Origin: a virus
IMG/VR virus record: IMGVR_UViG_3300030838_000405
Location: 1-42,719 of that record
Direction: 5' to 3' (one strand)
Length of the DNA: 42,719 nucleotides
Made by a program: the position numbers and the translations under genes. Below, in pieces: positions 1-24,059 of this stretch; position 1 is the first letter of the stretch, and each line of letters starts with the position of its first letter. The notes beneath the pieces are model-generated. The model did not search any database. It was not told the DNA's origin and was given only the letters and a program-made list of their open reading frames with translations.

Positions 1-578
1 ATCCTCCCTTACCTATTTGGGAAATACGATCTACATAGATACAGGCTGCTCCTTTGACGACGGAGCGTTAACCCTCATAGAACTAACGACTCAGACGGCT
101 ACAAACGTTTCCATGCAAGCAATGCACTAAAGAGACGCCAGGGTCAGGCCACGATATCCGACACAATCATTGATTGAGGATCCTCACCGTGTCCCCTGTC
201 GCTTGAGACGGTGAAGAGCGCAAAACACCCCTGATACATCCCTGATAAACTAGGCCACTCGCCTCGTTGACTCAGATTCCCAATGTCCCTACAAACAGCT
301 CCACTCTCCCGCCGCTTCTCCGTTGCCCCGATGATGGATCGGATCGCCAAAGCCTGATTCCATTGGCCGTTACCATGGTCGTGTACATTCTGTGTGCAGG
401 TATCGATACCGCACTTGTACCCAAATATCCAAATTATTGGACAGACTGGTTGGACTCAACGCTGATTTCTGCCCATCCAATCCTGGCACTACCGACTGAC
501 ACTACCCATTTTTCCCTGGCTCACCTGGTGTGATCGTCGGCCTGAATTTCTTACCCTGGTCACCACGCTGACCTGCCA
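1..578. other. Region without a supportable gene
   Basis: I see no convincing gene here. Two short overlapping open frames lie on opposite strands (144-350 minus, 267-533 plus). Neither has a good ribosome-binding site, a recognisable motif or a protein-like composition. The stretch lies upstream of the iteron array, so it may be the 3' flank of a replication gene outside the window, or spacer. I found no tRNA-like or terminator-like structure in it. Confidence 0.5.
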
Positions 579-779: not shown

Positions 780-929
780 TAGAACCACCTAAAGCTCCAT
801 TTGCATAATAAGTCTAGAGCTTGTTTATAGCCAGTTGTGTCTATGTCAGACAAGTAAGGTTAGATACTCACATCCCTTCGGGTGTTGCGTTAAGAGGCTC
901 GATAACTAGAATAATAAAGATGGGTCAAG
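780..929. other. Probable oriT region upstream of the mob genes
   Basis: This non-coding interval separates the iterons from the mobC-like gene, where oriT usually lies in MOBP mobilisation modules. On the minus strand, positions 835-827 read ACTGGCTAT, close to the ACTGGCTTA nic site of ColE1/pBR322. Nicking between 831 and 830 would transfer the origin side first and the mob genes last, as is usual. An imperfect inverted repeat (CATCCC and GGGTGT around TTC) lies at about 871-885. There is also a weak promoter-like TTGCGT (884-889) with an AT-rich -10 near 908-915. The location is better supported than the exact nick. Confidence 0.45.
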
Positions 930-1223
930 ATGAAAACTATTGAGAGGCAAAACAAAGAATCCCGCATTACTTTGCGCCTGAATAAAACTGAGCTCGACAC
1001 CATGAATGCAAAGATGGCTGAAGCAGGCTACAAGTCCGCAGGCGCGTTCATCAGAGATTTCGTTGCCACTGGACAGGTCAAGCCTAAAGTCGGGCAGGAC
1101 GTCGTCCAGATCGCCCGCGAGCTGATGAGCCTGGCCTCGATGATCAACGCCGACCGCCCAGGCAGCGAGCTCTTGGAAAAGGTGAGGTACATCGCTCAGG
1201 TAAACCTGGGAGGTGTTGCATGA
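930..1223 (+). CDS. MobC-like mobilisation accessory protein
   Basis: This 97-residue protein begins with a basic segment containing RITLRLNKTELDTMNAKM. That is the ribbon-helix-helix-like start typical of MobC proteins, followed by a helix containing AGYKSAGAFIRDFV. In mobilisable plasmids MobC binds oriT and helps the relaxase open the DNA. Its stop overlaps the relaxase start by ATGA, so the two are translationally coupled. The ribosome-binding site is weak. The family call rests on sequence pattern plus neighbourhood. The C-terminal part (ELMSLASMINADRPGSELL) is less typical. Confidence 0.8.
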   Translation: MKTIERQNKESRITLRLNKTELDTMNAKMAEAGYKSAGAFIRDFVATGQVKPKVGQDVVQIARELMSLASMINADRPGSELLEKVRYIAQVNLGGVA

Positions 1224-2374
1224 TTGGCAAGATCTTTCCCAAGTCAGCAGGCTCTTTCAGGAACCGAATTCGGTACATATTTGGCTGCACCAAGCACGAC
1301 CATGAAATCTCCAGCATCCGGACGATCAGCCACAACACAATGAGCAAAGACCCCCTGCCGGGAGTGCTACAGGGAAACGAAGCAGACCTCACTGATATGA
1401 TCAAGGAGTTCGACCAGGTGGAGACCCTCAGGCGCTTCGCTATCGACTCTGATAAGCCCATCAAACCCGTCTTTCATGCGATGCTGTCGCTGCGCCCCGG
1501 AGAGTCCCTGACAACCCCGCAATGGCGTCAGGCGGTCACGAAGTACATGACAGACCTAGGCTTCGACGAAACGACTCAGTATGTCGCTGTAATGCACCAA
1601 GACAAAGATCACCAGCACGTCCACATCGTAGCGAACCGCATTAGGCTTAATGACGAATTCAGCATGGTAAAAGACAGCAATGAGCGAAGCATCAGCCTTG
1701 AGTCAGTGTCCAGCATCGAAGACCGCTTCAACCTGTCGAAAGCACCGAAGCCAAAGGACACATGGGGCGTCTCGATCACTCACGCAGAGCTCCAAGCTTC
1801 CATCCGCGACAATGATCTACCTCTGAAGCACAAGATGATCGCAAAGATCGCGGGCGCTATCGAAGCCACGAACGCCGTCGACGGCGATATGTTCACGTTC
1901 ACCCGACTACTGAGAAGGCAGAAGGTCTACATCAACCTCTCCCTGAACGATGAGGGCCAGCCCAAAGGCATCAGCTTCGAGTTTGACGGCAAACACATCA
2001 GTGGCAGGCAGCTCAAACGCTCAAGGTTGACGTGGCACAAACTAATTACACAAGAAGGAATTAACTATGACCCAGAAACCATTTCAGAACTTCAGAACGA
2101 GATTGCAAGAAGAGATCGCGAGGAGCAAGAAAGAGCTCGAATCTACTACTATGAATTCATCGCAGTCAGCGGTCGCAGAAGAAAGCCTGTCTACGTCAGA
2201 TTCACGGCAAAAGACTACGAAGTTCAGAAATTGATTCAGGAGATTCTTGAGCTGCTAGATGCGATATTTGATGCTCTGTTCAAGCCGAAAGAGTGCAGAC
2301 TGAAGCGCAACTACATTGAGTTTACTCCGGGTGCACCATTAATTATTCCAGAAGAAGATGAGCTTACGCTTTGA
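1220..2374 (+). CDS. MOBP-type relaxase (mobilisation nuclease)
   Basis: This 384-residue protein is expected to nick one strand at oriT, stay linked to the 5' end through a tyrosine and pilot the strand into the recipient. The key evidence is HQDKDHQHVHIVANRI at about residues 133-148, the HxDxxHxHxHhxxN metal-binding motif III of MOBP/VirD2-type relaxases. The N-terminal FPKSAGSFRNRIRYIFG places a likely catalytic tyrosine at residue 19. The length is modest: it is a relaxase domain plus a basic and acidic C-terminal tail, with no primase or helicase domain. No coupling protein or mating-pair genes are seen, so transfer would need a helper conjugation system. Its 3' end overlaps the convergent exonuclease gene by 11 bp. 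Confidence 0.9.
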   Translation: MIGKIFPKSAGSFRNRIRYIFGCTKHDHEISSIRTISHNTMSKDPLPGVLQGNEADLTDMIKEFDQVETLRRFAIDSDKPIKPVFHAMLSLRPGESLTTPQWRQAVTKYMTDLGFDETTQYVAVMHQDKDHQHVHIVANRIRLNDEFSMVKDSNERSISLESVSSIEDRFNLSKAPKPKDTWGVSITHAELQASIRDNDLPLKHKMIAKIAGAIEATNAVDGDMFTFTRLLRRQKVYINLSLNDEGQPKGISFEFDGKHISGRQLKRSRLTWHKLITQEGINYDPETISELQNEIARRDREEQERARIYYYEFIAVSGRRRKPVYVRFTAKDYEVQKLIQEILELLDAIFDALFKPKECRLKRNYIEFTPGAPLIIPEEDELTL

Positions 2375-2831
2375 GATACTTCTTGTAGTAATGCATTAAC
2401 AGCCTGGCGTCGAGCAACGCATGATGCGGAAGCTCAGGCGCATCTTCTACCTGAATACTTGTTTCGTTATATAAGTCGATCAGGTTGACCGGCCTATTAG
2501 ATACATTGCCAGGCCACTTATTCTTGTAATAGGCAATTTCGCAGAAGAACTCCCAGTCCCACAGCGGAGCATCAGACATGATTTGCACGAACTCAAACTT
2601 TGTCAGAAAAGCCTGTAGCTTCTCCTGCGCGGAAGCAATAGTGCATGCTGCATGACCTCCATCCAGTTGCGGAATTACATGTTCTATAACGAAAGCACTA
2701 CAATCCTCAACTTGGTAGTTGTCACTTAGCTCAAAGTAGAGCTCTTGGGCATCTTCAGCAACCAAGGCCATTGAGATAAGTCTAGAGTTCGCATTGAGCT
2801 GGGTGAATTCGCAGTCCACAACGATTTTCAT
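2364..2831 (-). CDS. DEDD-type 3'-5' exonuclease (Rv2179c-like exoribonuclease fold)
   Basis: This 155-residue protein has the three Exo motifs of the DEDDh/RNase T superfamily. Exo I is VVDCEFT (D6, E8), Exo II lies around SDAPLWDWEFF in the middle, and Exo III is HHALLDARLL near the C-terminus, with the histidine five residues before the aspartate. These acidic residues would bind two metal ions and remove nucleotides from 3' ends. The compact form resembles small 3'-5' exoribonucleases often carried by phages and plasmids. The gene overlaps the next upstream minus-strand gene by ATGA, suggesting a two-gene operon. The substrate (RNA or DNA) cannot be decided from sequence. Confidence 0.8.
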   Translation of the reverse strand: MKIVVDCEFTQLNANSRLISMALVAEDAQELYFELSDNYQVEDCSAFVIEHVIPQLDGGHAACTIASAQEKLQAFLTKFEFVQIMSDAPLWDWEFFCEIAYYKNKWPGNVSNRPVNLIDLYNETSIQVEDAPELPHHALLDARLLMHYYKKYLKA

Positions 2832-7179: not shown

Positions 7180-9543
7180 TCACCTTGTTACGCTGACTCT
7201 GGTGACAGCTGAATCAGCAAACCCTGGCTTTTGAGCGCTGATCTCGAAAGCCAGACTGCTGTAGTAAGTACCACTGTTCAGTGCCGTCTCGTCAGCAAAC
7301 ACCCAAGATTCCCCGGATATCCCGCTGACAGTCTTGACGACAGTGCTCCCCGATTTCACGACCACTTGATACGTCGAAGCACTCACCTGACTCACGTCGT
7401 CACCGTTGAATACAACTGCAGGCAACGACCCATCACGCTTCCTCCAGGTCACAGTTGCAACACCCGAGATCTGCCCACCTTCGACGCCATTCACACGTAC
7501 ACGCCCTGGTGCCCAAGGAGCCAGGTTCGCCCCTGCAACGCTATACGAATGAATGACAGCATCATCGACATCGAGCACCCCGGTCTGAGTCCTCGGAAGC
7601 ATCCTGAGCGACACAGACTCACTCTTCGCATACTGCCAGTCGGTAACCCCGAAACCCTCGGAAACAGCCCATGCTCGGGCCCCTGCAGGGTGAGCCAGCG
7701 GCTTCGTATTGAACAAGCCCCGGTTGATCAGGCCAAGGGTCACAGTAGTGGAGTTGCCCAGTGCGGCGGTTTGGTAAGAGATCCATTCCTTCCCGACAGC
7801 ACTAACAATCAGCATTAGTCCAAGCCCCTGGCGAACCTCCTCCGGCGTGTGCGACGAGAGCTCCGCAGAAGGCCCCGAAAGCACCAGATTCGTGTCAGTC
7901 CATCCAGTCCCCATGACCTTCGTGGTCGAGAAAAGAGGCGTGAAAGGCATCGCCCCTGCGTCGACGTACCCGCTATCAACACCCCCTTTGACCTGCAGTT
8001 GGTAGTCCAGCGCAACGCCAGGATTTTCAGCAACAACGAGCACGCTGCTCACCGTTTGGTTTGTCGTCAAAATCGTCGGAGCGTCAATAATGTCAAAGCG
8101 TGTGATGTCGACAGGATCAAATGATGGTTTGACCCATACGCGCTCAGATCCATCTGCATATACGCTGAGGAACACACCAAATACGTCTTGGACGAGCGTG
8201 AGGCGTACAGCGCCGTCCTGAGGAGCACCCAGGTCAACGCCGGTAACGCGCATTACCATGTTTTCGACACCGAGATTGGGCCACGTGAGCCTAAGTACAT
8301 CTCCGACCTCGGAGTGAGCTGGTGCCCTTGTGCATTCAGCTGTACAGGTTGCTAGGGGCACAGATATTGCGGTCATCTCCCGCATGGCGACCTTGGCAGC
8401 GTTATCCCTGGTGCTGATCATGCTCATAGTCATCGTTTGGGAGTCACTGTCTCCTTTGTGGATGCGCAGGCCGTTGTTTTGGGCAATGACGGTGCGCTCG
8501 GTGAAGTCATCCTCAATACTTGTGAACTTAACCTTGAGCTCATTTACTGCGGTTTCCAGAGACCCCCTGGTGAACCCACTTAGGTTTTTCACGATAGAGG
8601 GCGTCAGGACTGGCAGGTCGTCAACAACATAATCATTACGTATCAGCTTGAGTTTTAGAGCGCCTGTAGCGGGGTCGGTATTGTGTGAGCCTTGGATGAC
8701 TTTCAAGACTTCGTCCACGACATCACCAGCCGAGCTTGAGGAGTCGATGGCCACCGAAATTCCTAGGCCTTCATCGTGCAGGATCTTGGCCGCTGCTGTG
8801 ATGGAGGCCACATCGATGGAAGTGAATCCTAGGTCTGCACCATACATCCCGTTGACGAGCATCTCGTAAATGAAGAATGCGGGGTTAGCATCAAGACCGA
8901 TTTGCTCGTACTCGCTATATCGATCATCTGGGGATTTCGGGAACCTGCTTACGTCGAACGCAACGGCTTGCGGGCTCGATGAGTTGCCGATATACATCCC
9001 TTCCAAGACCGCGTAAGACACGCCCCGGATGGGCGACACGAGTTCCGCACCAACCTGGTCGATCAGATAGTCACTTGGAGCTTGAGTCAGAGTGCCCGAG
9101 TAGAACCTGAGCGTGCCTGAAATTCCCCCAGAGCCATTTTCGTCACCACCAAACAGAGTTGGCTTCTCAATTAGAATGGCACCGCCTGTAGAGCTACCAG
9201 TCCATGCCATTTTGTCTCCGACCCTAATCCCCCTGAGAATAACGTCGGGCCCATGGCAGATACCCAGCTGGACGCCCATGTAATATCGATATCCAACGGT
9301 TGTTTTTTTTGAGCTAAATCCAGACTTGGTAACTTTTTTGATAGGCGATGTTTTTAGATCTCCATACCAAAGAACATTAGGCCCAGAAATCCGACGCGTC
9401 CCTGCAAGAACTTGAATAGGTCTCTCCGCAGCGGTGGGAAAGCTGAAGTCTTCAAGACCGGCTGCCTTTGGCTTGGATAACTTTGTTTTGATAAATGCGA
9501 CGGTCAGAATAAAAAATACGACCATTGCGGCTAGTTGCCACAT
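7180..9543 (-). CDS. Tail tip/hub protein (Phage-tail_3-like), host-specificity protein
   Basis: This 787-residue protein ends the tail operon, where siphovirus tip or receptor-contact proteins usually lie. The central part (about residues 210-480, including NPAFFIYEMLVNGMYG and EVGDVLRLTWPNLG) reads like the Phage-tail_3 domain of putative tail tip proteins. The C-terminal 300 residues look like fibronectin/Ig-type beta modules (WAPGRVRVNGVEGG, STYQVVVKSGSTVV). An unusual feature is an N-terminal hydrophobic segment (about residues 3-19) followed by KTK, which could be a membrane-active or signal-like tail tip sequence. AAGG lies upstream of the ATG. Confidence 0.8.
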   Translation of the reverse strand: MWQLAAMVVFFILTVAFIKTKLSKPKAAGLEDFSFPTAAERPIQVLAGTRRISGPNVLWYGDLKTSPIKKVTKSGFSSKKTTVGYRYYMGVQLGICHGPDVILRGIRVGDKMAWTGSSTGGAILIEKPTLFGGDENGSGGISGTLRFYSGTLTQAPSDYLIDQVGAELVSPIRGVSYAVLEGMYIGNSSSPQAVAFDVSRFPKSPDDRYSEYEQIGLDANPAFFIYEMLVNGMYGADLGFTSIDVASITAAAKILHDEGLGISVAIDSSSSAGDVVDEVLKVIQGSHNTDPATGALKLKLIRNDYVVDDLPVLTPSIVKNLSGFTRGSLETAVNELKVKFTSIEDDFTERTVIAQNNGLRIHKGDSDSQTMTMSMISTRDNAAKVAMREMTAISVPLATCTAECTRAPAHSEVGDVLRLTWPNLGVENMVMRVTGVDLGAPQDGAVRLTLVQDVFGVFLSVYADGSERVWVKPSFDPVDITRFDIIDAPTILTTNQTVSSVLVVAENPGVALDYQLQVKGGVDSGYVDAGAMPFTPLFSTTKVMGTGWTDTNLVLSGPSAELSSHTPEEVRQGLGLMLIVSAVGKEWISYQTAALGNSTTVTLGLINRGLFNTKPLAHPAGARAWAVSEGFGVTDWQYAKSESVSLRMLPRTQTGVLDVDDAVIHSYSVAGANLAPWAPGRVRVNGVEGGQISGVATVTWRKRDGSLPAVVFNGDDVSQVSASTYQVVVKSGSTVVKTVSGISGESWVFADETALNSGTYYSSLAFEISAQKPGFADSAVTRVSVTR

Positions 9544-9560
9544 GTTAATACGCCTTAAAG

Positions 9561-10361
9561 TTAATAGACTTGGAAAGGGTTATCCGCTGGTATCGTTAAG
9601 AAGCCCAGAAAGTTATCGAAGTTATCAAAAGAATGACACGACACTGCTGAGTGATCGCACCCTTTAGCTACTTGAATAGCATCTCCAACCTTGAGCCCAT
9701 CAATCGGAGACATTAGCTTGAATGCATTACCTTCACACGAGGTGATCATGCGGAAATCACTTCCGTCCTTTGATAACAAGCCTGTGATGTAGTAGTCGTC
9801 TTCGTTTTGCTTGCTGGCTACTTCGACGGTGAAGCCGTTGTCTTTGATGGCCGTTACCCTGGTGTCTTCTTGCCAATCCTGGATTTGCAGGCCGCAGCGC
9901 GTGTCGTAGAGGTGGTGATTGCATTGGCTTTGATAGCCGCAGCGCAGCACCTGGCGCGTCAGGGATCTGGAGACAGGGTTGCACGCTAGGGAGGCGATGG
10001 AGTTGTTCCAGGTGACGCTGGTTACCTCTCCAGCGAAGATGTTAATCGACTCACCGGGCAGGTCGCGCTGGGTCTGAAAAACCTTGATGCTGACGTGGTT
10101 TGACGGCAAATGTGACCGGAATAGCAGGGGTACTGGTGAGTCACCAGGCATGTCCAGGGTCAACTGATTCTTGTAATCCTCGGCGGTACGCTGGACTTTG
10201 CCGCGCTTCAAACTCAGCGGTTTGTAGATCAAGCCATCAGTGTGAAGGTGCTGACGACTGCCGGATGTGTATGCGTATTTGTCCGTCCCGTGCTCAAAAA
10301 GAAAGAGTTCGATGGGTCTAGATAGTGATAGCGCTTTCTGTATCGATTGCAGTGTCAGCAT
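9561..10361 (-). CDS. Phage BR0599 family tail protein
   Basis: This 266-residue protein shows the signature end of the BR0599/DUF2163 group: a cysteine pair in GCDHSAVSCHSFDNF followed by NFLGFLTIPADNPFQ. It also has a middle cysteine cluster (RCGYQSQCNHHLYDTRCGL), suggesting metal binding like related tail hub proteins. Members sit just before the tip protein in siphovirus tail operons, as here. They form part of the distal tail hub. The start codon lies 44 bases inside the preceding gene without a strong ribosome-binding site, so translational coupling is likely. Confidence 0.82.
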   Translation of the reverse strand: MLTLQSIQKALSLSRPIELFLFEHGTDKYAYTSGSRQHLHTDGLIYKPLSLKRGKVQRTAEDYKNQLTLDMPGDSPVPLLFRSHLPSNHVSIKVFQTQRDLPGESINIFAGEVTSVTWNNSIASLACNPVSRSLTRQVLRCGYQSQCNHHLYDTRCGLQIQDWQEDTRVTAIKDNGFTVEVASKQNEDDYYITGLLSKDGSDFRMITSCEGNAFKLMSPIDGLKVGDAIQVAKGCDHSAVSCHSFDNFDNFLGFLTIPADNPFQVY

Positions 10362-11850
10362 AAAGTAGTTGTCTTATATTTTTAGTTATAGTCGACACTT
10401 CGCTGGTGTCGAAGATGTAGCGAAAATCATCATGGTTAAATCTTGCGAGATAGAGCGGCACGATTGTATCGAAGTCGCTGATTTTCAGGTTATTCGTGAG
10501 CTCTTTTGTTGTGATTGTTTCTGTGCCATCAGGGTTTTTCGTGGCGCTCAGAATAGTTCTGTAAATAGTTGCTCCATCATACAGCTTTATTGCCACTATT
10601 TGGGCGGGCGAGTTGCTGCTAGCAGAGTTAGTGTATCCACTGCTTTTGATCTTGAATTTGTATGTTGGGCCGATGATGTCTTCACTAAGCTCAAACGCTT
10701 GGCCTGGGCCGGTAGCATAGAACTCACCCTGAGCTCCGTTCATCAATTCAGCGAAGTCCTCAAAGCGTTGACGCTCTTGTTCAGAGAAGAACCTGAACGT
10801 CTGACTTAGAATTTTCACCGCCCCTTTGATCCGGTCGTATCGGCTACGCACACCAATCAGGGGGTCATGCGTTTCGCGAAGGCGGCTGTACTTCGTGGTG
10901 ATGTCGTTAGACCAGTCAGGGTTGAATGGGAAGATTGGCCTGCTATCGAGGTACTCGAAGTCGTCGACTGGCGTTGGTTTCTGGATCTGTGCCTCGTCGA
11001 GGTCGAAGGTGATCGAGTGCTGATCGAAGCCGCGCAGGAGCGATGTGGCATTTGACTCATCGGATGGGTAGGCGACTCGGGCTGGGATCACTACCGCATT
11101 GGTAGAGAAGGTTTTCTTAGCCAGAGTATTTAAGGTCACGACCCTGTCGGCAACCGACTCGACACTGACTATTTCGGACTCATCCCCCTCAGAGATCAAA
11201 AGCGTGTCGGATGCCATCACGTGTGCATTGATCGTCTCCAGTGCAACAGATGTATCTCCCGCCGAGACTGCTCGCGACAGCTGACACTGCAGCGGCCACA
11301 ACGGGACAATCATGCTGCCGGTCGACGTAGCTATCTTGTTATCAAACAGGTACTGCTGCCCGTCAGTCATGCTGTACATATAGCTGAGAGAGCATCTAGG
11401 GGTGTCACGCAGGGCTATGCGTTGCTCTGTGCCGTCAAAGGACTCGATGACCTCTGTCAGGTACTGAATACTCATCTCGGGTTGGGTCGACCAGTCAATG
11501 CGCTCAGGCATCACCAACGCCATTGATGCCGTCAGGCTAAAGCTGTACGCAGACCCGGTGCCGAAGTCAAAGGCTGCCGTGTAGTCGATAAGCCCATTTG
11601 CTTGGCTCAGAGAAACGCCGTAGGCAAAGGAGGTAAAAGCGTACAAAGCCCCTGAGGTAGCACCATTGAGCTCAACCCCGAATGCCCCGGTTTGAGTAAC
11701 ACCAGCTAATACCTTCGCATCGACGAACGAATGCCAGAGCTCGAACGAAAATTCTGCACCAGGCACAACTACCCCCGCATCAATCCGCTCTGGGGTTAGA
11801 AACACGTTATCGAAGAAGAATGAGCCGAAGCTCTTGGCAATCTGATTCAT
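10318..11850 (-). CDS. Tail protein (distal tail, unknown subtype)
   Basis: This 510-residue protein follows the tape measure and two paralogous tail proteins and precedes the BR0599-type protein, so it belongs to the distal tail assembly. The sequence is beta-rich. Its middle contains SRAVSAGDTSVALETI and a later stretch SRYDRIKGAVKILSQTFRFFSEQERQRFEDF, with an EFYATGP turn. I know comparable proteins only as unnamed phage tail proteins. It overlaps both neighbours by four or more bases, which supports co-translation. Confidence 0.7.
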   Translation of the reverse strand: MNQIAKSFGSFFFDNVFLTPERIDAGVVVPGAEFSFELWHSFVDAKVLAGVTQTGAFGVELNGATSGALYAFTSFAYGVSLSQANGLIDYTAAFDFGTGSAYSFSLTASMALVMPERIDWSTQPEMSIQYLTEVIESFDGTEQRIALRDTPRCSLSYMYSMTDGQQYLFDNKIATSTGSMIVPLWPLQCQLSRAVSAGDTSVALETINAHVMASDTLLISEGDESEIVSVESVADRVVTLNTLAKKTFSTNAVVIPARVAYPSDESNATSLLRGFDQHSITFDLDEAQIQKPTPVDDFEYLDSRPIFPFNPDWSNDITTKYSRLRETHDPLIGVRSRYDRIKGAVKILSQTFRFFSEQERQRFEDFAELMNGAQGEFYATGPGQAFELSEDIIGPTYKFKIKSSGYTNSASSNSPAQIVAIKLYDGATIYRTILSATKNPDGTETITTKELTNNLKISDFDTIVPLYLARFNHDDFRYIFDTSEVSTITKNIRQLLYADTAIDTESAITI

Positions 11851-12788
11851 GATGTTGTGTCCAAGAGCACGGCAATGCCCAAGTTGAAATGCGGGTAATC
11901 CCGATCAGCCGGAAAGGCCTTGGCGTATTGCGGAAACACAAGAAACCGGTGAGTCCCGAGCACGTACTCGGCACTAGGCTCGAAGGAATCCAGTGGCACC
12001 AGGAAAATCTCTGGTAGCTCAGCAAACGGAGCAAACCCGCCGCCGAACTCTGTGAATACCGTAACGGGCACCAGACCATCCAGGCCGCCGATCAATCCCT
12101 TTGCACGTGACACGGTGCCAACGTTCCCGTAGCTCGTGCCGTTTTGGTGAAAGTGCGGAACGCCGATCAGAGTCCCTTGGCCACTGGGGCGAAGTGGCCC
12201 CCAGGTACGAGCACCCACATCCCAGCCCGTCCACTCTGCGTGAGCGAGACGAACACCGAAGGTCGCGTAAGCATTCGAGAATAGCGACTGCTTCTGTGTG
12301 CTCAGGTAGCTCTCAGTAGACGTCACAAACTGGCCACCCGTTCCAGGAGACAGAACTGGCAATACGCCGAACGACAGGCACGAATACAGCCCACCTGCGC
12401 GCTCAGTTACGAACATCACCAAGTCATCACTGACGAAGAAATGGCATGTGCCAGCACCTTCGCCGGACTCGATACAGCACTTTGGAGACGACTGAAAACC
12501 TGGCTGAGTGATGAAGCCTGCGCTATCGCTATAGCCACTCGCAGCAGAAACGATCACGCCATGTTGGCCGATGCTGCTTGCTGCGTAGTAGTCGACGTAC
12601 GGGCTTGATTCACCAAAGCTCCGCAGGCAAAAAAAAGCGCCGCCCTTGGAGATCATGAGCTGGATGCCGATGCGAGGATCATCAAAACCCCCGTACCGAT
12701 TTACAGTCCAACCCTCAATCTCCAGGCGCTGTTTGATCACTGCTACGAGGTCGTCTGCTGACGTGTATCGTGACGAGTAGTGCTTCAT
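11847..12788 (-). CDS. Tail-associated virion protein, paralogue A
   Basis: This 313-residue protein has an N-terminal helix (SADDLVAVIKQRLEIEGWTVNRYGG), then a beta-rich body with many G, S and aromatic residues, ending in HRFLVFPQYAKAFPADRDY. The next gene upstream has the same plan: helix, W-V start, body, and a C-terminal YLIVPNVAKASE. Both look like products of an old duplication. They sit between the tape measure and distal tail genes and probably form a tail-tip ring or fibre-like structure. No enzyme motif is seen. Confidence 0.65.
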   Translation of the reverse strand: MKHYSSRYTSADDLVAVIKQRLEIEGWTVNRYGGFDDPRIGIQLMISKGGAFFCLRSFGESSPYVDYYAASSIGQHGVIVSAASGYSDSAGFITQPGFQSSPKCCIESGEGAGTCHFFVSDDLVMFVTERAGGLYSCLSFGVLPVLSPGTGGQFVTSTESYLSTQKQSLFSNAYATFGVRLAHAEWTGWDVGARTWGPLRPSGQGTLIGVPHFHQNGTSYGNVGTVSRAKGLIGGLDGLVPVTVFTEFGGGFAPFAELPEIFLVPLDSFEPSAEYVLGTHRFLVFPQYAKAFPADRDYPHFNLGIAVLLDTTS

Positions 12789-13657
12789 GACAACCTCAAC
12801 CCGTATGTCTCAGATGCCTTCGCCACATTCGGCACGATCAGGTAATCCACACCATCAACAACAATCAACGACTCAGTAGTACGCCCCTGCGGGACTGCGA
12901 CGACACCATCCAGATAGCCGAGCCACACCCCATCATCCGCATTCAGCACATCGGTATCAGACCCACTGCCAGAGCTAACAACCAAGGACGGGTAAACGAC
13001 TGCACCGCCGTCGATTTTCCCCCTCAGTCGATGGTATTTACCGTCAAACGGGTGGATAAACGAGTACGAATATGAGTACGGAAATTCGCTGGTGAATGAC
13101 GAGGAGCCGCCCGAATTACCCCCGACGATCTGCCACGCGCCGGTCGGCAAACAGACCTTAGGGCAATACTGATTACCCCCCGACATAAACGGGTAGGCAG
13201 ACTCCTTGGAGCCACCGATCTCGCCAGATCCACCGATAAAGCACGGGAACGGATAAACCCTGTTCGAGCCGAAGGGCAGGATCAACCCAGCGTAAAACGA
13301 GTAGTACGTCGACGCCGTCTTGATGACTCCACACAAACGCCTGGAATTCACCACTGTCCATACCTTCACCGAGCCAGATGGCAGGACAAAGCGCGGCAGG
13401 AATGGCGAGTACGCATAGCTAAACCCAGCAGCCTGGGCGGACACAGGTTGGTCAGGATCGAAAATGGGGAATGCCTGAATCTCTACAATCCCAGCACCAA
13501 TCACAAACGCGACAAATCCTGCGCCGCCAGGTAGTCCAAATACTTTTTCCGAAGAAGTATCTCGAACTACCGACCATTGGTTTGACGGCAAAAGATCAGT
13601 ACAAAGAGATGTAAGCCAGTCTGCACCACTGGCATAATTTGATATAGCTACTGTCAT
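12785..13657 (-). CDS. Tail-associated virion protein, paralogue B
   Basis: This 290-residue protein is the first gene after the tape measure. It begins TVAISNYASGADWLTSLCTDLL and ends with the YLIVPNVAKASETYGL motif shared with its neighbour. The body is rich in glycine, serine and tyrosine (YPFMSGGNQYCPKVC, FPYSYSYSFIHPFDGKYHRL), fitting a beta-structured virion protein. An extended -10-like TGATAATAT on the minus strand (13687-13695) lies 30 bases before the ATG, so a promoter may restart transcription here. It overlaps the next gene by ATGA. Confidence 0.65.
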   Translation of the reverse strand: MTVAISNYASGADWLTSLCTDLLPSNQWSVVRDTSSEKVFGLPGGAGFVAFVIGAGIVEIQAFPIFDPDQPVSAQAAGFSYAYSPFLPRFVLPSGSVKVWTVVNSRRLCGVIKTASTYYSFYAGLILPFGSNRVYPFPCFIGGSGEIGGSKESAYPFMSGGNQYCPKVCLPTGAWQIVGGNSGGSSSFTSEFPYSYSYSFIHPFDGKYHRLRGKIDGGAVVYPSLVVSSGSGSDTDVLNADDGVWLGYLDGVVAVPQGRTTESLIVVDGVDYLIVPNVAKASETYGLRLS

Positions 13658-13692
13658 TATTTTAATTCTTATTAGTCAGTAGCTATATATTA

Positions 13693-16467
13693 TCACATGT
13701 TCTTTATCTCATTCCTGTTCGCACGAATAACGTTCATGATTGCCGCCTCGCCATGACTTCCCTCCATAACGTTTGCGATGGACATTGAGTCGATCATGTT
13801 ATTAACAGTAACTCGCGGTGCCTGGCTGGTCTGACCGTTACTTCCCTTACCAATATTGTTGCGATGACGCGGATCACTTGCTGTAAGCATTTCCTCACCT
13901 TTTTCCGCGATGATCGGAACTTCATTGGGTTTCAGTCCCATGATCCCACCTGTGTGATAACGAGGGGCGTCCTGGAAAAAGCTCCATGGCACATTCCGCG
14001 AGCGACCCGCATCACCGATGCCCCCACCACCATGTTTAACACCGGCACCCACCATGCTCATCAAGCTACCAGCGCCTGCACTGGCACCACCGGTATAGGC
14101 CGAAAGCATCGACTGGATGGCAAGCTGGATGAGCAGCTTAGCGATGATCTTCGCAACCTCACTCAAGACGCCCTGAGCGAAGTCAGCGAAGGCCTCCTTA
14201 GCTGACTTGGTGCCAGAAATGAAGTCGGTAAACAGGCCCTCAAGGCCACCCTGGAGACTCGTCGAAACGTTGTCCGTTAGCGTCTGCAGGTCGAACACTT
14301 CAGCGCGAGCGTCCTGCGCAGACTTCTTCACTTTGTCGAGATCTGCAGGATTTCCCGTGACCTCAGCGGCTTTCGTTCCGCGTTCTTCGAGCTTGTTCGC
14401 CTGGTCGAGGTAGTCCAGCGGCGAGATCTGATGCTTCTCCAGCTTTGACTTCAAACTGGCGTACTGGCGCTCGATCTCTTGCATCTCTGCCTGAGCTTTC
14501 TTCGCGGAGATGAGCTTCTGGATTGCCGTGGAGTCGTCGCCCAATGACTCCATGTTCTTAATTGTGTCCTTGAAATCCGACTCGATCTTTTTGATGTCAG
14601 CGCTGAATTGATTGCCGCCAATTGCGAGCAGCTCGATTTGCGCGTCAGCTTTGATCTGAGCTAACTGCTCTTTTATCTGACCAACCTGGGCGGCACGGTC
14701 GGCTTTCAGCAGCGCCGACTGGTTGACGAGCTCTGCGCCAATCGTTGCCTGATCTGCTTTTTTGGAAGTTATGTCTGCTTCGAGCTGGTTGATCGTTGCG
14801 AGGATGCCAGGACGGTCATTGAGGTTCTGAGTCGCGCCAAGGAGCTTTTGTTGGCCTGCGAGACTGCCCTGCAGGGCTTTGATGTCGACTTCGAGAGAAC
14901 GCTTTTTCTGCTCGCCTAGCTTCTTTGCAGCCTCCATTTCGATTCTGAATTTTTCGTCCGCGATCTGTACGGCTGAAAGGTTTTCGAGGCGCGCACGCTC
15001 CTGCAGGCCAGACAGTTCCACCTGTTTTTTCGTGTCGATCTTCGAGATCGTGATGTCGATTTCTTTCTTAGTGAGGTCGGCCTGGAGCTGAGCCTGTGTT
15101 GCGGCGATTTGAGCTGATGCAGCGGCGTTTTTGGTTTGAAGTTTTACGATTTTGTCCTGGTCGGACTTGTCCTTTCGTCTCGCTAACTCAGCATTTGTTT
15201 TGTCTTCATTCTCAAGAATCTTCGTCTTGACTTTCGCCATCGTTTCTTCGGTTTGCTTCTGGTAGTCACCATCATTCCAAACCTTGAAATTCTCTAGCCC
15301 GGACTTGTGAGCCTCTTCTTTCAGTACCTGAAGCTGCTTAATTGTCTCGCCAATACTTTTATTTTCAGTAGCGACCTGAATTGGTTTGCTTGACGACTCC
15401 TGAAGCCCAGTTAGAACACCCTGAAATTTTGATATTTGGCTGGCAGCTCCATCCAGGTTGAACGTTGCAGCAAACTGTTTCATTGGCTCAATGAATGTCG
15501 AGTTCAGGAACTCAAGGTTCTTTGCGAAAGCCGCCCGGAAGATATTGACGAGGCCGTTTGCGCTCTTTGTATAAATAGAGTCAAGGAATTGGAACTGCTT
15601 GAGGTTGAACGTAGCGAAAGACAAGACCACTTCTTTCATCGCGCTGTACGCAACCACGAACGCGTTTTTGACCTGGAGAGTGAAGTTCAGACTAGCTACG
15701 ACGCCGGAAAAAACATCCAGGAACGTTTGGCCAATGTCTTTGACAGGCGCTTGGGTATCTTTTGAGATGCCAACTATGGCTTCAGTAACCATCTCCGTCA
15801 GAGCGGTTAACTCAGGCGCGATATCGGCAACGATCTTGCTGAATGCAGTGCTACCAACTTTTTCAAGTTGAGCAAATGACTTCCCCAGTTGGGAAACAGT
15901 CAGCGTATCTACATCCGACAAAGTAAGATTTAGCCGTTCAGCCTCAGCGCGAAGCCTTTTGAACTCAGCTCCACCGTTTCGCAGAACTGGAAGCAGATTG
16001 CGCAGGGAATCAGACCCGATTTGGTCAAGGAAAGTGAATGCTGAGTTATCAGACATTCCTTTTATCGTCTCTGAGATTTTGTCTAGCTGCTCTAGCGGAT
16101 TGAGCTTGTTAAATTTCTCGGCAGAGATGTTGAGGACTTCAAAGAAGTCGACTGCGCCGCCAGAGCCGATGGAACTGAATTCCTCAACTTTGATCCGGAC
16201 TTCGTCCAAAGCATCCAGAAACTGATCAGGTTTGACGTTCGCCCCGTTAAATGCCGCGTACTGCGCAGCAGTTAGATCTTGCATAGTTACGCCCAAGCGC
16301 TTCGCAGCAAAGTCCAACTCAGTCATTTGCTCAATGGCATCATGAAACTTGAATGCCAGGCCGACGCTAGCAGCCAGTGCCGTAATTTTACTGAAAGAAC
16401 TTGTGAGTATGTTGGATGCTTCGTCCTTAGCTTTAAGGACTAAATTGATTACAGCATTACTAGCCAT
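13693..16467 (-). CDS. Tail tape measure protein
   Basis: This 924-residue protein sets tail length, with assembly chaperones bound before the tube forms. Evidence includes its size, the second-longest-gene position in the tail operon directly after the chaperone pair, and a typical N-terminus (NLVLKAKDEASNILTSSFSKI). It also has very long coiled-coil stretches (about residues 390-720) and the common C-terminal motif FISGTKSAKEAFADFAQGV followed by a hydrophobic segment (about 755-800). At roughly 0.15 nm per residue it would imply a tail of about 140 nm. That figure is an estimate from the general rule, not a measurement. Confidence 0.93.
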   Translation of the reverse strand: MASNAVINLVLKAKDEASNILTSSFSKITALAASVGLAFKFHDAIEQMTELDFAAKRLGVTMQDLTAAQYAAFNGANVKPDQFLDALDEVRIKVEEFSSIGSGGAVDFFEVLNISAEKFNKLNPLEQLDKISETIKGMSDNSAFTFLDQIGSDSLRNLLPVLRNGGAEFKRLRAEAERLNLTLSDVDTLTVSQLGKSFAQLEKVGSTAFSKIVADIAPELTALTEMVTEAIVGISKDTQAPVKDIGQTFLDVFSGVVASLNFTLQVKNAFVVAYSAMKEVVLSFATFNLKQFQFLDSIYTKSANGLVNIFRAAFAKNLEFLNSTFIEPMKQFAATFNLDGAASQISKFQGVLTGLQESSSKPIQVATENKSIGETIKQLQVLKEEAHKSGLENFKVWNDGDYQKQTEETMAKVKTKILENEDKTNAELARRKDKSDQDKIVKLQTKNAAASAQIAATQAQLQADLTKKEIDITISKIDTKKQVELSGLQERARLENLSAVQIADEKFRIEMEAAKKLGEQKKRSLEVDIKALQGSLAGQQKLLGATQNLNDRPGILATINQLEADITSKKADQATIGAELVNQSALLKADRAAQVGQIKEQLAQIKADAQIELLAIGGNQFSADIKKIESDFKDTIKNMESLGDDSTAIQKLISAKKAQAEMQEIERQYASLKSKLEKHQISPLDYLDQANKLEERGTKAAEVTGNPADLDKVKKSAQDARAEVFDLQTLTDNVSTSLQGGLEGLFTDFISGTKSAKEAFADFAQGVLSEVAKIIAKLLIQLAIQSMLSAYTGGASAGAGSLMSMVGAGVKHGGGGIGDAGRSRNVPWSFFQDAPRYHTGGIMGLKPNEVPIIAEKGEEMLTASDPRHRNNIGKGSNGQTSQAPRVTVNNMIDSMSIANVMEGSHGEAAIMNVIRANRNEIKNM

Positions 16468-16469
16468 GC

Positions 16470-17182
16470 TTATTGCTCTCCGGCAATTTTCATCATCAGA
16501 TCATTAAAGGGTTTCGAATCCCCCGTGACGCAAGATATTCGGCTCAGGTGGTCGCCATACATTTTTGCGAATAGCTGCTCGCGGCTAAGTTCTTTTTGAA
16601 CTACAGCAACACTGAACAGCTTTCTGATTGAGTATTTGTATGGGTTAAGATTTGGGGTGTTATGTCCCTTGGAGATCAGGAATTCACAGTTAGAAACGAG
16701 GACGCCTACGAACTTATCTAACTCGTCACCATCCTCAGCGCTCTCTTTGCGTTTCCTCTCTGCTTCAAAGTCTTTTACTTTTTCAGCAGCTGTACGATTG
16801 TCGGCCCGAGTTTGATCAGACTTTTTTTTAGACCGTCAGGAAAAGTAAGCGAGAAAACTGCAGCAAGCAGTTCAACCTGGGTCATCAGGGGGAGGTTTCG
16901 TACGTGCGCAGCAGCATCAGGTTCTTTACAGCCAAGAGCGATACACGCAGCACCAAAGCCTGGAAACTGAAGCATGATGCCCTTCGAGTTGTCGGTATCC
17001 TTGAGGTCTTCTTTGGCATTCTGCAAGAAGATAGCGCCCAGGATTTTGCCGTGGCTATCCACCAAGCGGACAAAGTCCTCAGTGGTTAACCCATACACAT
17101 CGAAGGAAACTTCAGGTTTGTCTTCGGACGCCTGAGTAATGACAACTTTCTTAAATGGAACAACGAGGTCGAGCAAAGACAT
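16470..17182 (-). CDS. Tail assembly chaperone, long form made by -1 frameshift (gpGT-like)
   Basis: Reading the minus strand in the 0 frame gives a 135-residue protein. At codons 119-120 the sequence CT AAA AAA AAG (slippery A AAA AAA at 16829-16823) allows a tandem -1 slip. The -1 frame is then open for 117 more codons and stops at 16472-16470, two bases before the tape measure ATG. The product would be about 237 residues, with a second domain rich in E, K and R at first and then containing DKFVGVLVSNCEFLIS. This is the lambda G/GT arrangement: the T-like extension has no start codon of its own. It is well supported by layout and slippery site. Confidence 0.85.
16775..17182 (-). CDS. Tail assembly chaperone, short form (gpG-like)
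   Basis: This 135-residue protein is the first gene of the tape-measure operon. It is expected to coat the tape measure protein during tail assembly. The body is helical and soluble (LTTEDFVRLVDSHGKILGAIF, with FPGFGAACIALGC). The end of the gene carries the eight-A slippery run. The stop lies downstream of the slip site by 15 codons, so most ribosomes make this short form. A TGATATGAT element 36 bases upstream and an AATAATAATAAG leader precede the ATG. Confidence 0.82.
   Translation of the reverse strand: MSLLDLVVPFKKVVITQASEDKPEVSFDVYGLTTEDFVRLVDSHGKILGAIFLQNAKEDLKDTDNSKGIMLQFPGFGAACIALGCKEPDAAAHVRNLPLMTQVELLAAVFSLTFPDGLKKSLIKLGPTIVQLLKK
16822..16831 (-). promoter_or_regulatory. -1 ribosomal frameshift slippery site
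   Basis: On the minus strand the run CTAAAAAAAA is read CTA AAA AAA A in the 0 frame. It fits the heptamer A AAA AAA for tandem -1 slippage by lysyl-tRNAs. It joins the short chaperone to the 117-codon open extension. Runs of eight A are rare in coding DNA of this GC content. Confidence 0.8.
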
Positions 17183-17290: not shown

Positions 17291-17635
17291 ATGCAGAAAA
17301 TTTCAGAATTGACGCTTGCTGAACGTGATGATTATGTTTGCCGTCAAAGTGTGGCTGTGCTGCAAGTTAGCGGGTATGACATGCCGTTGGAAGTTGCACT
17401 GGATTACTTGCTGGATTCTGAATCGCAGGATGGTTATCGATTTGATGTTCTGGACTGCGTGTTCAACTGTATTTCTTTTGCTTTAGAGCACAAGCGCGAT
17501 GACACAGAGGTGAAGGAAGCCATGGAGAACATGCTGATGCAGGTTGGTGCGGAGCATGTGCATCGGTTGACTGACCAGTTGTTCAAGATTGCCGAGGCTG
17601 CGGCCAAGGGCGAGCTGGAGCCGGTCGTATGCTGA
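17291..17635 (+). CDS. Hypothetical protein, cargo inserted in the tail operon
   Basis: I chose the ATG at 17291 because GAGG lies five bases upstream; an ATG at 17288 is possible. The 114-residue product is acidic and helical and I do not recognise it. It lies on the opposite strand to the tail genes and overlaps the histidine phosphatase start, so the pair is coupled. A TTGACA at 17234-17239 with AAGAAT 17 bp later may be its promoter. This marks the start of a cargo insertion between tail chaperone and tail tube genes. Confidence 0.6.
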   Translation: MQKISELTLAERDDYVCRQSVAVLQVSGYDMPLEVALDYLLDSESQDGYRFDVLDCVFNCISFALEHKRDDTEVKEAMENMLMQVGAEHVHRLTDQLFKIAEAAAKGELEPVVC

Positions 17636-18237
17636 CAGTTCATTTCGTGCGTCATGGTGAGAGCGCTGCGAACGCTGGTAATGCAACATCAGACCCGGCG
17701 CTGATTCCGTTGACTGAAAAAGGCTGGGCGCAGGCGCGGGCTGTAGCGGATTCGTTCGATGTAGCGCCCGATCTGATCGTGATGTCGCCGTTTGAGCGTG
17801 CTCAGGATACTGCGCTGCCGACCATCCAGAAATTCTCAGATTGTCCGGTTGAGATCTGGGCGGTGGAAGAATTTACTTACCTTTCCCCAACGCGTTGTGC
17901 CAACACGACTGCTGCTGAGCGGAAGCCTTGGGTAGACGCCTACTGGGGTTCGGCTGACCCGGACTTCAAGGATTGGCCTGGTACAGAGTCGTTCAGCCAC
18001 CTGATAAAGCGAGCAAGGTCTGTGCTAAGTCGCCTAAATGGCATGACGGGTAAGGTGGTGGTCTTTGGGCATGGGCAGTTTATGCAGGCTGTGAGGTGGC
18101 TGGTGGTAGCGACACCTCATCGCATAGACTCCGATGCTATGCGCTCATTCAGAGCTTATGACATGTCTAACCCGATTAAGAATGGGGAAACTCTGTCTTT
18201 AGATCATGATGGGCAGCGATGGATTTACAACCAATAA
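17629..18237 (+). CDS. Histidine phosphatase superfamily protein (phosphoglycerate mutase-like)
   Basis: This 202-residue protein has the catalytic RHG motif in HFVRHGESAANAG (H9), a following TEKGWAQARAVA helix, the active-site acidic region EEFTYLSP, and the second histidine in VVFGHGQFMQAV. These residues remove phosphate through a phospho-histidine. Substrates in the family range from sugars and nucleotides to phosphoproteins and signalling molecules, so the target is unknown. GGAG lies eight bases before ATG. A free-standing phosphatase of this kind in a phage tail operon is unusual and suggests a lysogeny-time (moron) function. Confidence 0.88.
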   Translation: MLTVHFVRHGESAANAGNATSDPALIPLTEKGWAQARAVADSFDVAPDLIVMSPFERAQDTALPTIQKFSDCPVEIWAVEEFTYLSPTRCANTTAAERKPWVDAYWGSADPDFKDWPGTESFSHLIKRARSVLSRLNGMTGKVVVFGHGQFMQAVRWLVVATPHRIDSDAMRSFRAYDMSNPIKNGETLSLDHDGQRWIYNQ

Positions 18238-18277
18238 TATAGATTTTTGACCACGTCCCTAGTACATGGAGAGTTGT

Positions 18278-19657
18278 GTGAGCGAAGACATTAAAATCAC
18301 ACGGATAGACCTCAAGAGGTTCACCGCATTAGTTGGCCCATCGCGAAGTCCTCGCGCAGCCTTCTTTAGTGAAGAGATAGATTGGTTTAGCAATGCCGAT
18401 GAGTCAGTTCTTGGCGTGGTGCTACTTGACACTACAGATAATGACTATGTCTGGCTTACACTAGGGCGTGATGAAATTGGTCGATACAGAAACTTCGCTA
18501 TAGAGGCTTGTATTGAAACCCAAGCAGAAGCTGAAAAGCAGTTAATCTGCAAAATGCAGGAAATTACAAAAACCGGACAAACCGTTTTCCCACAGGGAGA
18601 CAAGGGGCAAGCACTGGATCTCTTCAAAATTATCGTTACTGAGCAGAAGATCCACCCATTTTTCAGGCGCCTCTGTGAGGAACCATCCTTCTCATCCGCC
18701 AAAGGCATTATTGGTGAGATGATGCCGCACTATGTTGACATTGACGGAAACTTTGTAGAGCAGTTTCAGTCAGCGGGTTTTGATGCTCGCATCTGGGAAC
18801 TATATCTTAATTCCTATCTGATTGAGGAGGGGTTTGAATTTGATAGATCCCACTATGCTCCAGACTTCAACGTCAACAAATACGGCTACAAGGTTTGTAT
18901 AGAAGCCACTATTGTCGGACGCAAAAAACCGATGGGAGAAGATGAGGCTCGTATACCAGCAGAAAACTACACTAAGGAGCAGATATTAGAAAAGTCTATG
19001 GATGAGATGCCTATAAAATTTGGCAGCCCTCTCTACACTAAGCTTCAAAAAAAATATTGGTTGCACGAGCACGTACAAGGACATCCCCTTGTGATCGCCA
19101 TTGCTGACTTCCATGACAAACAAACCATGTTATGGAGCTCCACTTCGTTACCTAATTACCTTTACGGTGTACGTCACGAATCTCATTACGATGAGAATGG
19201 CAAGCTGGTAATAGACCCAATTAAAATCGACACTCACAAATTTGGCGATAAAGAGATTCCTTCGGGATATTTTTTTCAACCCGACTCTGAAAATATTAGC
19301 GCTGTGATGTTTTCAAATAGCGGCACAATTTCTAAGTTTAACAGGATGGGTAAACAGTCTGGTTTCGGCGCCAAAAACGTAATGTTATTCCGCACCGGCT
19401 TCTGTCATGACCATGATGAAAACGCATCAATGCCTAAAACATTTTCATTTGAAATAACTGGCGAGTCAAACGAAAGCTGGGCTGAGGGGTTATCTATGTT
19501 TCACAACCCAAATGCACTTCACCCGGTACATCCCGGTCTTTTTCCGTCAATAGCTCATCACTATTTTGACAATGGGCAAATTATAAGCAATCTCCCAGAC
19601 TTCTATCCCTACTCTTCAACTACTAATATTATAAATGTCGTGGATGGCGACAAATAA
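18278..19657 (+). CDS. Nuclease-like protein with WELYL...PDF...EAT motif, putative defence cargo
   Basis: I chose the GTG at 18278 because GGAG lies six bases upstream; an ATG at 18266 has no ribosome-binding site. The 459-residue product contains, near residues 172-211, RIWELYLNSYLIEEGF, then SHYAPDFNV, then KVCIEATI. This spacing of E, PD and E fits the PD-(D/E)xK nuclease fold, although the lysine of ExK is replaced (EAT). Many bacterial unknowns share this segment. The role is unproved: the context (moron on the opposite strand, before a terminator) and the motif suggest DNA or RNA cleavage in host or phage defence. No membrane segment is present. Confidence 0.6.
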   Translation: MSEDIKITRIDLKRFTALVGPSRSPRAAFFSEEIDWFSNADESVLGVVLLDTTDNDYVWLTLGRDEIGRYRNFAIEACIETQAEAEKQLICKMQEITKTGQTVFPQGDKGQALDLFKIIVTEQKIHPFFRRLCEEPSFSSAKGIIGEMMPHYVDIDGNFVEQFQSAGFDARIWELYLNSYLIEEGFEFDRSHYAPDFNVNKYGYKVCIEATIVGRKKPMGEDEARIPAENYTKEQILEKSMDEMPIKFGSPLYTKLQKKYWLHEHVQGHPLVIAIADFHDKQTMLWSSTSLPNYLYGVRHESHYDENGKLVIDPIKIDTHKFGDKEIPSGYFFQPDSENISAVMFSNSGTISKFNRMGKQSGFGAKNVMLFRTGFCHDHDENASMPKTFSFEITGESNESWAEGLSMFHNPNALHPVHPGLFPSIAHHYFDNGQIISNLPDFYPYSSTTNIINVVDGDK

Positions 19658-19700: not shown

Positions 19701-20474
19701 TCAGGCTACGACATGTTCTTCCTTGAACATCTTAGACAATCCCGATCCAGTGACAGCCCTAGAGACCTGCAGGGTTCCCTTGATCTCTTGGTCTGCGTAG
19801 TCACTCGACAAGAGCTGACGCTGGGCGGCTGGTGACAGGGCAACTTTGTGGTATGTGACCTTGACCGGCGTGTCGCTCTCAGCCAGGTTTACTCCATCGA
19901 AAACGATCATCACGTTGACCCCAGTATTCACCATGCCTTCGATTCTGCGAACGGCTGCCTTGTCGTACACGACATCAACAATGTCACCATCCGCAACGCT
20001 AGATGTCGACGGGAAGTAGATAGAGCCGTTTGAGACAACGTAGTCAGCGCCAAGCACCAAGGGGTCGCCCTCCCCGGTTACCTTGATGCTCGTTACACCA
20101 GCAATGATGCCTTCAACGATAATGCTGCGCCCCTTGTAGGCCTTTGCTTTAGCAGTGGCGCCAGTTTCAGCGATGTCTTCAGTTACCTTTCCGAAGAGTG
20201 CAAGCTCCATTACCTCTGGTGAAAATGACCGTAGGTTAATTGTTGCTTCTGCAGAGTTCTTAATTACTTTGGATTTGGCAACACCTAGAGTGCCATAAAC
20301 CATATCTGGCATCTCTACCTTGTCGCTGGACAAGGCCAATACAGCGGAAGAGGCCTGACCCACAGTAAAAAATCCACCTACAGGTTGGTCGTTGGCATCA
20401 AGCTTCGAAATGAGTAGCCCACCGTTTGCAATCCAGCCGATGGTTGTATCTGGTGCATTAAATCCTAAAGACAT
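19701..20474 (-). CDS. Major tail tube protein
   Basis: This 257-residue protein should polymerise into the tail tube. It starts MSLGFNAPDTTIGWIANGG and is beta-rich with the alternating composition typical of tube proteins. A middle insertion resembles a small Ig-like module (GITSIKVTGEG-type region, about residues 120-165). Position supports the call: it lies after the neck genes and before the chaperone and tape measure, with a strong terminator after it. AGG lies eight bases before the ATG, within a leader nearly identical to that of the major coat gene. Confidence 0.8.
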   Translation of the reverse strand: MSLGFNAPDTTIGWIANGGLLISKLDANDQPVGGFFTVGQASSAVLALSSDKVEMPDMVYGTLGVAKSKVIKNSAEATINLRSFSPEVMELALFGKVTEDIAETGATAKAKAYKGRSIIVEGIIAGVTSIKVTGEGDPLVLGADYVVSNGSIYFPSTSSVADGDIVDVVYDKAAVRRIEGMVNTGVNVMIVFDGVNLAESDTPVKVTYHKVALSPAAQRQLLSSDYADQEIKGTLQVSRAVTGSGLSKMFKEEHVVA

Positions 20475-20481
20475 GTCTTGT

Positions 20482-20512
20482 ACCTATTATTATTATTGTT
20501 ATTGGTATTTAG
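20482..20512 (-). promoter_or_regulatory. AATACCAATA...(AAT)n leader of the tail tube gene
   Basis: The minus strand carries AAATACCAATAACAATAATA followed by further AAT repeats and AGGTA just before the start. The same layout precedes the major coat gene (29627-29657). Both genes encode the most abundant virion proteins, so this may be a shared promoter or translation-enhancing leader. Confidence 0.5.
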
Positions 20513-20519
20513 TTTGAGC

Positions 20520-20966
20520 TCAAACAAGCACGATTCGTTGCGACCAGATAACTGACCAGGCGCTAAAGTCTGACTTGCCGTCAGTGACGCCATTAAATGC
20601 TTCTTTGACTAATTGTAACACGGGGATCTTGGTATTTGTTTTAGGGTCGCCACGGAAGTTCTCAATCATCTTTGCAATCTCTACGGCGGTGTCAGCAGCG
20701 ATAGATGACATTCCGTGCGTGGCTGGATCTATCTTGCCGATGACCCAGGCTCCAAACATTGCGTCGAGTTCCAGTTTCACCCTGGTATTTCTGTCCGGGA
20801 CGTTGCCTCCGCCGCAGGAGAGAAGTATGTACGGGCGTTTGCCATCAAGCTTTAGGTTCTTGAGATCATCTACTTCAAGTTCGCCTGAGAAGAATTTGAT
20901 GGTTGGTTTTGACGGCAAAGATTCCAGCTGGGTTTTGATTAGTTCAAGGTGATCGGAGATATTCAT
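20520..20966 (-). CDS. Mu gp37-like protein (DUF1834), tail/neck component
   Basis: This 148-residue protein resembles the DUF1834 group. It begins with a short helix (DHLELIKTQLESL) and has a central RPYILLSCGGG strand. The C-terminal WSVIWSQRIVLV is typical of tail completion proteins that handle the terminator ring. It overlaps the upstream morphogenesis gene by ATGA, in the Mu-like order gp36-gpG-gp37. In such phages this set lies between head and tail tube genes, exactly as here. Confidence 0.75.
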   Translation of the reverse strand: MNISDHLELIKTQLESLPSKPTIKFFSGELEVDDLKNLKLDGKRPYILLSCGGGNVPDRNTRVKLELDAMFGAWVIGKIDPATHGMSSIAADTAVEIAKMIENFRGDPKTNTKIPVLQLVKEAFNGVTDGKSDFSAWSVIWSQRIVLV

Positions 20967-21436: not shown

Positions 21437-21438
21437 GA

Positions 21439-21804: not shown

Positions 21805-21861
21805 AAAAGCAGTTTCTCTTAATCATTATTTTGTTTTGATCCTTGCTGCCGCTGCCTTGCT

Positions 21862-21920: not shown

Positions 21921-21924
21921 GGAA

Positions 21925-24045: not shown

Positions 24046-24059
24046 CTTTAACCGGATAA

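Follow-up and report, generated by a model that had tools for sequence, protein, structure and literature searches.

Tailed phages and elements that hitchhike on conjugation are usually treated as separate routes of gene transfer, and the known crossovers between them are either rare or consist of decayed phages that have acquired mobilisation. In P1-like phage-plasmids, mobilisation genes and the origin of transfer (oriT) are nearly absent, and their presence marks derivatives in which phage functions have been lost (PMC10879196). For Phi1207.3 of Streptococcus pyogenes, a 52-kb integrated prophage, conjugation-like transfer was reported, with its mechanism left open (PMC4260502). Here, we analyzed a 42,719-bp linear IMG/VR virus contig (IMGVR_UViG_3300030838_000405; hereafter the window), whose right end falls within the gene for the terminase large subunit (TerL) and in which a first-pass annotation had noticed mobilisation genes joined to a tailed-phage genome. 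Our analysis indicates that the window probably represents most of an integrated temperate Pseudomonas siphophage that carries, as a fixed core module, genes for a MOBP relaxase and its MobC-like partner next to an oriT-like region. Judging from these genes, the clade may spread both as virions and by riding conjugative machinery. Beyond the earlier annotation, the element was recognized as an integrated prophage, its boundary with the host was located and a likely oriT was seen.

The junction between the mobilisation genes and the phage genes recurs well outside the window. The relaxase, used as a query, identified 11 IMG/VR contigs and eight Pseudomonas genome contigs at 53-92% identity, while a tail protein encoded close to the mobilisation region retrieved 33 IMG/VR contigs at 50% identity or more. 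The relaxase was located at the same place in all 24 informative contigs of this tail clade, comprising 23 with the relaxase in the fetched stretch and L150, whose relaxase lies in L008, a second piece of the same contig. The remaining nine were uninformative: seven stop within the tail gene or ~1 kb from it at most, and L079 and L088 reach only as far as gene g6, short of the expected site. Gene order from the mobilisation module to the tail genes was also conserved across the 24 contigs. Among 399 Pseudomonas genomes, three possess a close tail homolog, and the relaxase was found in all three; none of the 11 contigs whose tail homologs are distant (25-40% identity) and which offer 3.3 kb or more of room carried it. 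Pairwise divergence of the relaxase tracked the divergence of three tail genes (Spearman 0.74-0.81; 0/2000 permutations), comparable to the correlation between one tail gene and another (0.77). Thus, the relaxase and tail genes diverge together, under purifying selection, and on these comparisons the junction is real, old and a fixed trait of the clade. The linkage claimed in the first-pass annotation is, therefore, both real and recurrent. Neither outcome that it had named as fatal, a mobilisation segment and a phage segment on separate molecules or a relaxase never linked to these phage genes elsewhere, was found, as the element is bounded by one pair of attachment (att) sites (see below) and the link holds in 24/24 contigs.

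The left part of the window contains the following features:

1-339, plus strand: host flank, namely the region upstream of dusA and its first 19 codons (283-339, MSLQTAPLSRRFSVAPMMD); left attachment end, with an approximate crossover
601-738, no strand assigned: palindromic TGCGAWWTCGCA-like repeats in a 21-bp phase (iterons), seen with and without phage genes
828-853, no strand assigned: oriT candidate core block TAGCCAGTTGTGTCTATGTCAGACAA, with 5-bp hairpin arms at 838-842 and 848-852
870-889, no strand assigned: second hairpin of the predicted oriT, ACATCC-CTTC-GGGTGT (870-885), then invariant TTGCG; 96.5% of helix cells paired
930-1223, plus strand: MobC / NikA-like accessory protein, 97 aa (PF21983, NikA-like, E 2.7e-7, above cut-off)
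1220-2374, plus strand: complete MOBP-type relaxase, 384 aa (PF03432, E 6e-22; 78.7 bits against a cut-off of 24.6)
2364-2831, minus strand: DEDDh-type exonuclease adjoining the relaxase (PHROG 2259, E 1e-22; DEDDh model)

The MobC-like and relaxase open reading frames share a 4-bp overlap, and the PF21983 match bears out the MobC-like partner proposed earlier. Both reading frames fall within the module span given in the first-pass annotation (780-2374), but they begin at 930, and 780-929 is non-coding and contains the oriT-like hairpins. Alignment of 29 relatives revealed that the catalytic residues Tyr19, His126, Asp128, His133 and His135 of the relaxase are invariant; His131 of the HxDxxHxHxH motif described earlier is not. 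The best NCBIfam matches, TraI/MobA(P) (NF041893, E 2e-18) and Bacteroides MobB, were both below their cut-offs. A PDB sequence search with the relaxase as query gave no match, and the sole sensible PDB fold match of its AlphaFold model (mean pLDDT 83, pTM 0.49) was the minimal relaxase domain of R1162 MobA (2ns6; E 1.4e-3, probability 1.00). With its nuclease domain, catalytic tyrosine and three-histidine motif, the protein is a member of the MOBP relaxases. The dN/dS values were 0.06-0.09 for the relaxase and 0.04-0.14 for the MobC-like gene, and the DEDDh-type exonuclease is kept beside the relaxase in most relatives. Site-specific nicking by the relaxase would take place at the conserved oriT-like region.

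This region (601-889), located upstream of the MobC-like gene, combines the 21-bp-phased palindromes with the two hairpins and is conserved in 19 loci; the 270 bp preceding mobC are non-coding yet strongly conserved. Most of 16 loci have five to seven iteron sites, mostly at 21-bp spacing, where shuffled sequences would give 0.3-0.5; these are probably binding sites for the relaxosome or a regulator. The core block TAGCCAGTTGTGTCTATGTCAGACAA is near-invariant in the 19 loci, where the relaxases drop to 53% identity, and 98.9% of the cells in its stem are paired. Taken together, both stems are paired in 97.6% of cells across these loci, compared with 30-52% when the partners are slid, although the loci vary too little to give strong evidence of covariation. 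The bottom strand reads CTGG/CTA, which we take to resemble the ColE1 nic site CTGG/CTTA; since this motif could not be confirmed in the papers searched and serves as a lead only, our placement of the nic site near 830/831 of that strand is a guess.

The left end of the window further revealed how the element resides in its host. Positions 225-346 match the 5' end of dusA in many Pseudomonas genomes, with the strongest core at ~298-346, and the matched chromosomal site is the 5' end of an intact dusA. Because positions 283-339 encode DusA residues 1-19, the first ~340 bases of the window are host flank. In G201, the phage and mobilisation genes are flanked on one side by a 5' fragment of dusA and on the other by the dusA body, which is found 45 kb away, adjoining the integrase. 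The elements of G004 and G013 (Pseudomonas sp. TH31), 49,807 and 51,947 bp long, respectively, are inserted in the anticodon loop of the host tRNA-Leu(UAA), with the core GACTTAAAA, and in each a single att pair encloses the integrase, the oriT region, the mobilisation genes and all phage genes. Joining the flanks restored tRNA-Leu(UAA), as detected by ARAGORN, and the joined 111-bp site is unbroken in many other Pseudomonas genomes at 94-99% identity, while its halves are 52 kb apart in G013. The att core at tRNA-Leu is 9 bp and was recognized via the host tRNA halves; a direct-repeat search missed the att sites because the core is so short. Together, tRNA-Leu(UAA), dusA and the empty-site reconstruction establish chromosomal integration at a specific site, a hallmark of integrative mobilizable elements (IMEs). 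Since the integrase and the site differ between the tRNA-Leu and dusA groups while the module persists, the integrase and its site are exchanged, whereas the mobilisation and phage genes are kept together.

Phages at the tRNA-Leu site carry a whole tRNA-Leu-type gene beside the integrase (G004, 49965-50049; G013 contig 33, ~393554-393640), which presumably stands in for the host tRNA-Leu(UAA) split by the insertion. Two elements have a gene for a tyrosine integrase immediately beyond their dusA-type end (G008, 37389-38510; L006, 6588-7721), which suggests tandem occupation of dusA by several elements. A phage-plasmid, a reading prompted by the iteron array, was rejected, as the relatives are integrated and non-phage islands carry iterons as well; the tested early-region proteins of G004 yielded no match to a plasmid replication or partition family.

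Pseudomonas islands at dusA or tRNA-Leu (L006, L013, L015, L017, G223, G322 and G381) also carry this oriT together with mobC and the relaxase, and have no homologs of the window's virion genes nearby. TerL homologs were absent genome-wide from those genomes tested (G012, G014, G016 and G017), and no homologs of the phage replication genes e432/e779 were present in the island stretches read. In the relaxase tree, phage and non-phage members interleave, with at least four switches between them. When the far dusA end was sought for the non-phage islands, the search returned 80-95 kb regions that may hold more than one element. The dusA island of G381 (L114, 2170-14225), which bears the oriT-mobilisation block, encodes Hachiman/Cap4, Mrr, Thoeris (ThsB, SIR2-STALD, TIR), RnlA and nSTAND3, and by its gene content it is apparently a mobilisable defence island without such phage genes.

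The phage part of the window contains the following features:

7180-17182, minus strand: siphophage tail module, including the tape measure (13693-16467); PHROGs; order conserved beside the mobilisation module
19701-30610, minus strand: major tail protein, head morphogenesis, lysis (endolysin, 23330-23794), major capsid protein (MCP, 28455-29624) and scaffold (29789-30610); PHROGs
38285-39601, minus strand: portal protein (PHROG 145, E 2e-94)
41446-42717, minus strand: TerL, with the 5' part missing at the contig end (PHROG 2, E 3e-25)

Small function-unassigned genes lie between the exonuclease and the tail genes, followed by the tail, lysis, head, portal and terminase genes. Full-length TerL homologs in relatives comprise 505-521 aa, and ~6 kb of early genes follow TerL there, including a RuvC-like nuclease and a Herpes-ori-bp/DEAD helicase. 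Neither integrase type (int459 or int373) is present in the window, as the contig ends short of the integrase. Terminase, portal, MCP, tail, lysis and integrase thus occur together, the integrase being known from relatives, and this is the gene set of a temperate tailed phage; the PHROGs matches likewise confirm the tail, head, lysis and packaging genes that the first-pass annotation had seen in one segment with the relaxase. Several further genes accompany this set. A 587-aa gene of unknown family (39663-41426, minus strand) separates the portal gene from TerL; in some relatives, for example G004, these two genes are neighbors. A PD-T7-1 anti-phage defence protein is encoded as cargo on the opposite strand (18266-19657, plus strand; PADLOC, E 1e-196), in the interval from tail gene t6 to the major tail protein gene and next to a histidine-phosphatase-like gene (17629-18237). 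The variable cargo genes between scaffold and portal include one for a DUF4238 protein (33192-34223, plus strand; E 3e-18). Rfam and tRNA searches of the window gave no match.

As the first-pass annotation had stated for the window, mating-pair genes are missing from view; the same was observed in close relatives, and no type IV secretion system (T4SS) genes were found in the annotated members. The hosts were checked genome-wide for one family, the TraG/VirB4-type P-loop PF19044, in seven genomes. With no T4SS gene in the elements and PF19044 absent from six of the seven hosts, a helper would come from elsewhere. The element, therefore, combines a relaxase and a predicted oriT with the absence of mating-pair genes, as judged by the one T4SS family searched, and this is the configuration of an IME.

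What the module does for the phage admits more than one explanation. The relaxase and the oriT-like site could instead serve phage replication and packaging, starting rolling-circle replication on the excised genome and supplying concatemers to the terminase, with no conjugation involved. Some integrative and conjugative elements replicate autonomously by means of their relaxases, and a replication role would also fit a module that is conserved in the whole phage clade and located inside the phage genome. Nevertheless, we consider it rather unlikely: the clade has its own origin-binding-type helicase, the MobC partner is one expected of a relaxosome, and the oriT-mobilisation block resides in Pseudomonas islands that lack these virion genes and, in the stretches read, e432/e779 homologs. 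Such sharing and the interleaving of phage and non-phage relaxases are not predicted by a phage-only replication role, and the presence of the block in islands without phage genes favors conjugative mobilisation. Several points weigh against the reading of a mobilisable phage nonetheless: the relaxase could still act in phage DNA replication, the oriT is a prediction whose ColE1 nic resemblance is tentative, no helper T4SS was identified among the hosts tested for PF19044, and virion production by clade members is putative.

A module left behind by recombination and no longer working would agree with the broken genes of some relatives (tail_fib split in G013, a shortened relaxase in L018 and an interrupted one in L102), yet such decay is quite improbable given the low dN/dS of the relaxase, its intact catalytic residues across 29 sequences and the conservation of the non-coding oriT block. 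Even less probable is an integrative mobilisable element that was inserted beside a prophage and moves separately. Although integrase-oriT-mobilisation blocks are known without phage genes and dusA sites seem multiply occupied in places (the 80-95 kb islands), the only two att copies in G004 and G013 enclose the mobilisation and phage genes together, as do the dusA 5' fragment and body in G201, and the order is the same in 24 contigs. As for a chimera, the window is one linear contig of unknown assembly quality, but the search for relatives with the same junction, proposed in the first-pass annotation, found it in independent assemblies including isolate genomes, which refutes an assembly artifact and reduces its probability to a negligible level.

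We, therefore, return to mobilisation as the preferred reading, with the conserved catalytic residues, the oriT candidate, purifying selection and the sharing with non-phage islands as the basis for dual movement. In the proposed mechanism, the phage integrase would excise the circular genome, MobC and the relaxase would assemble on the iteron/hairpin region and nick oriT, and the relaxase-bound strand would leave through the T4SS of a co-resident conjugative element to re-integrate at tRNA-Leu or dusA. The phage could, thus, spread as a virion and also by a mobilisation that spares the donor and needs no phage receptor. We lean, with some reserve, toward the broader proposal that conjugative mobilisation is a core, ancestral second transfer route of the whole temperate tailed-phage clade, which would move either as a virion or as single-stranded DNA via a helper, and that the module has been exchanged in both directions with mobilisable defence islands. 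A clade that retains both the mobilisation block and the virion genes would allow a direct test of whether conjugation bypasses receptor barriers and donor death. In addition, the shared oriT-mobilisation block connects these phages with defence islands that occupy the same sites, and a check for mobilisation could join prophage annotation.

Searches of 50,697 phage records and 72,556 plasmid records returned no close relaxase, and the best MCP matches among phages reached only 26% identity; the clade, therefore, appears uncultured in those collections. Our literature search, whose coverage excluded most subscription papers, uncovered no account of a clade of tailed prophages that carries a relaxase. 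Among the known systems, MOBP mobilisable plasmids (e.g. IncQ2 and small enterobacterial plasmids) likewise carry mobC immediately ahead of a relaxase gene from the same superfamily, although relaxase identity is only ~27-29% over 72-76% of the length. P1-like phage-plasmids and the P1-derived mobilisable plasmids (PMC10879196) share with this clade a phage-type genome with a relaxase or oriT. In contrast to them, the present element is integrative, with the mobilisation block in every informative member and the virion genes retained; extrachromosomal plasmid replication in lysogeny, which defines phage-plasmids, does not apply to these integrated relatives. Phi1207.3 is similarly an integrated prophage, but the present clade has a relaxase, MobC, an oriT-like region, Pseudomonas hosts and tRNA-Leu/dusA sites, and the word relaxase is never used in PMC4260502. 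The dusA-associated integrase prophages and islands (PMC4482086) have the dusA 5' end, a tyrosine integrase and Pseudomonas hosts in common with it, although the word relaxase is absent from that paper too. The Vibrio islands mobilised by IncC plasmids (PMC8409611) are also mobilisable islands in dusA, but they are SGI1-like islands and not phages. Finally, the iMOB IMEs (PMC11389934) share a tyrosine integrase, chromosomal integration, an oriT, a relaxase and a lack of visible mating-pair genes with the element described here, whose bulk, unlike theirs, is a complete-looking tailed-phage genome.
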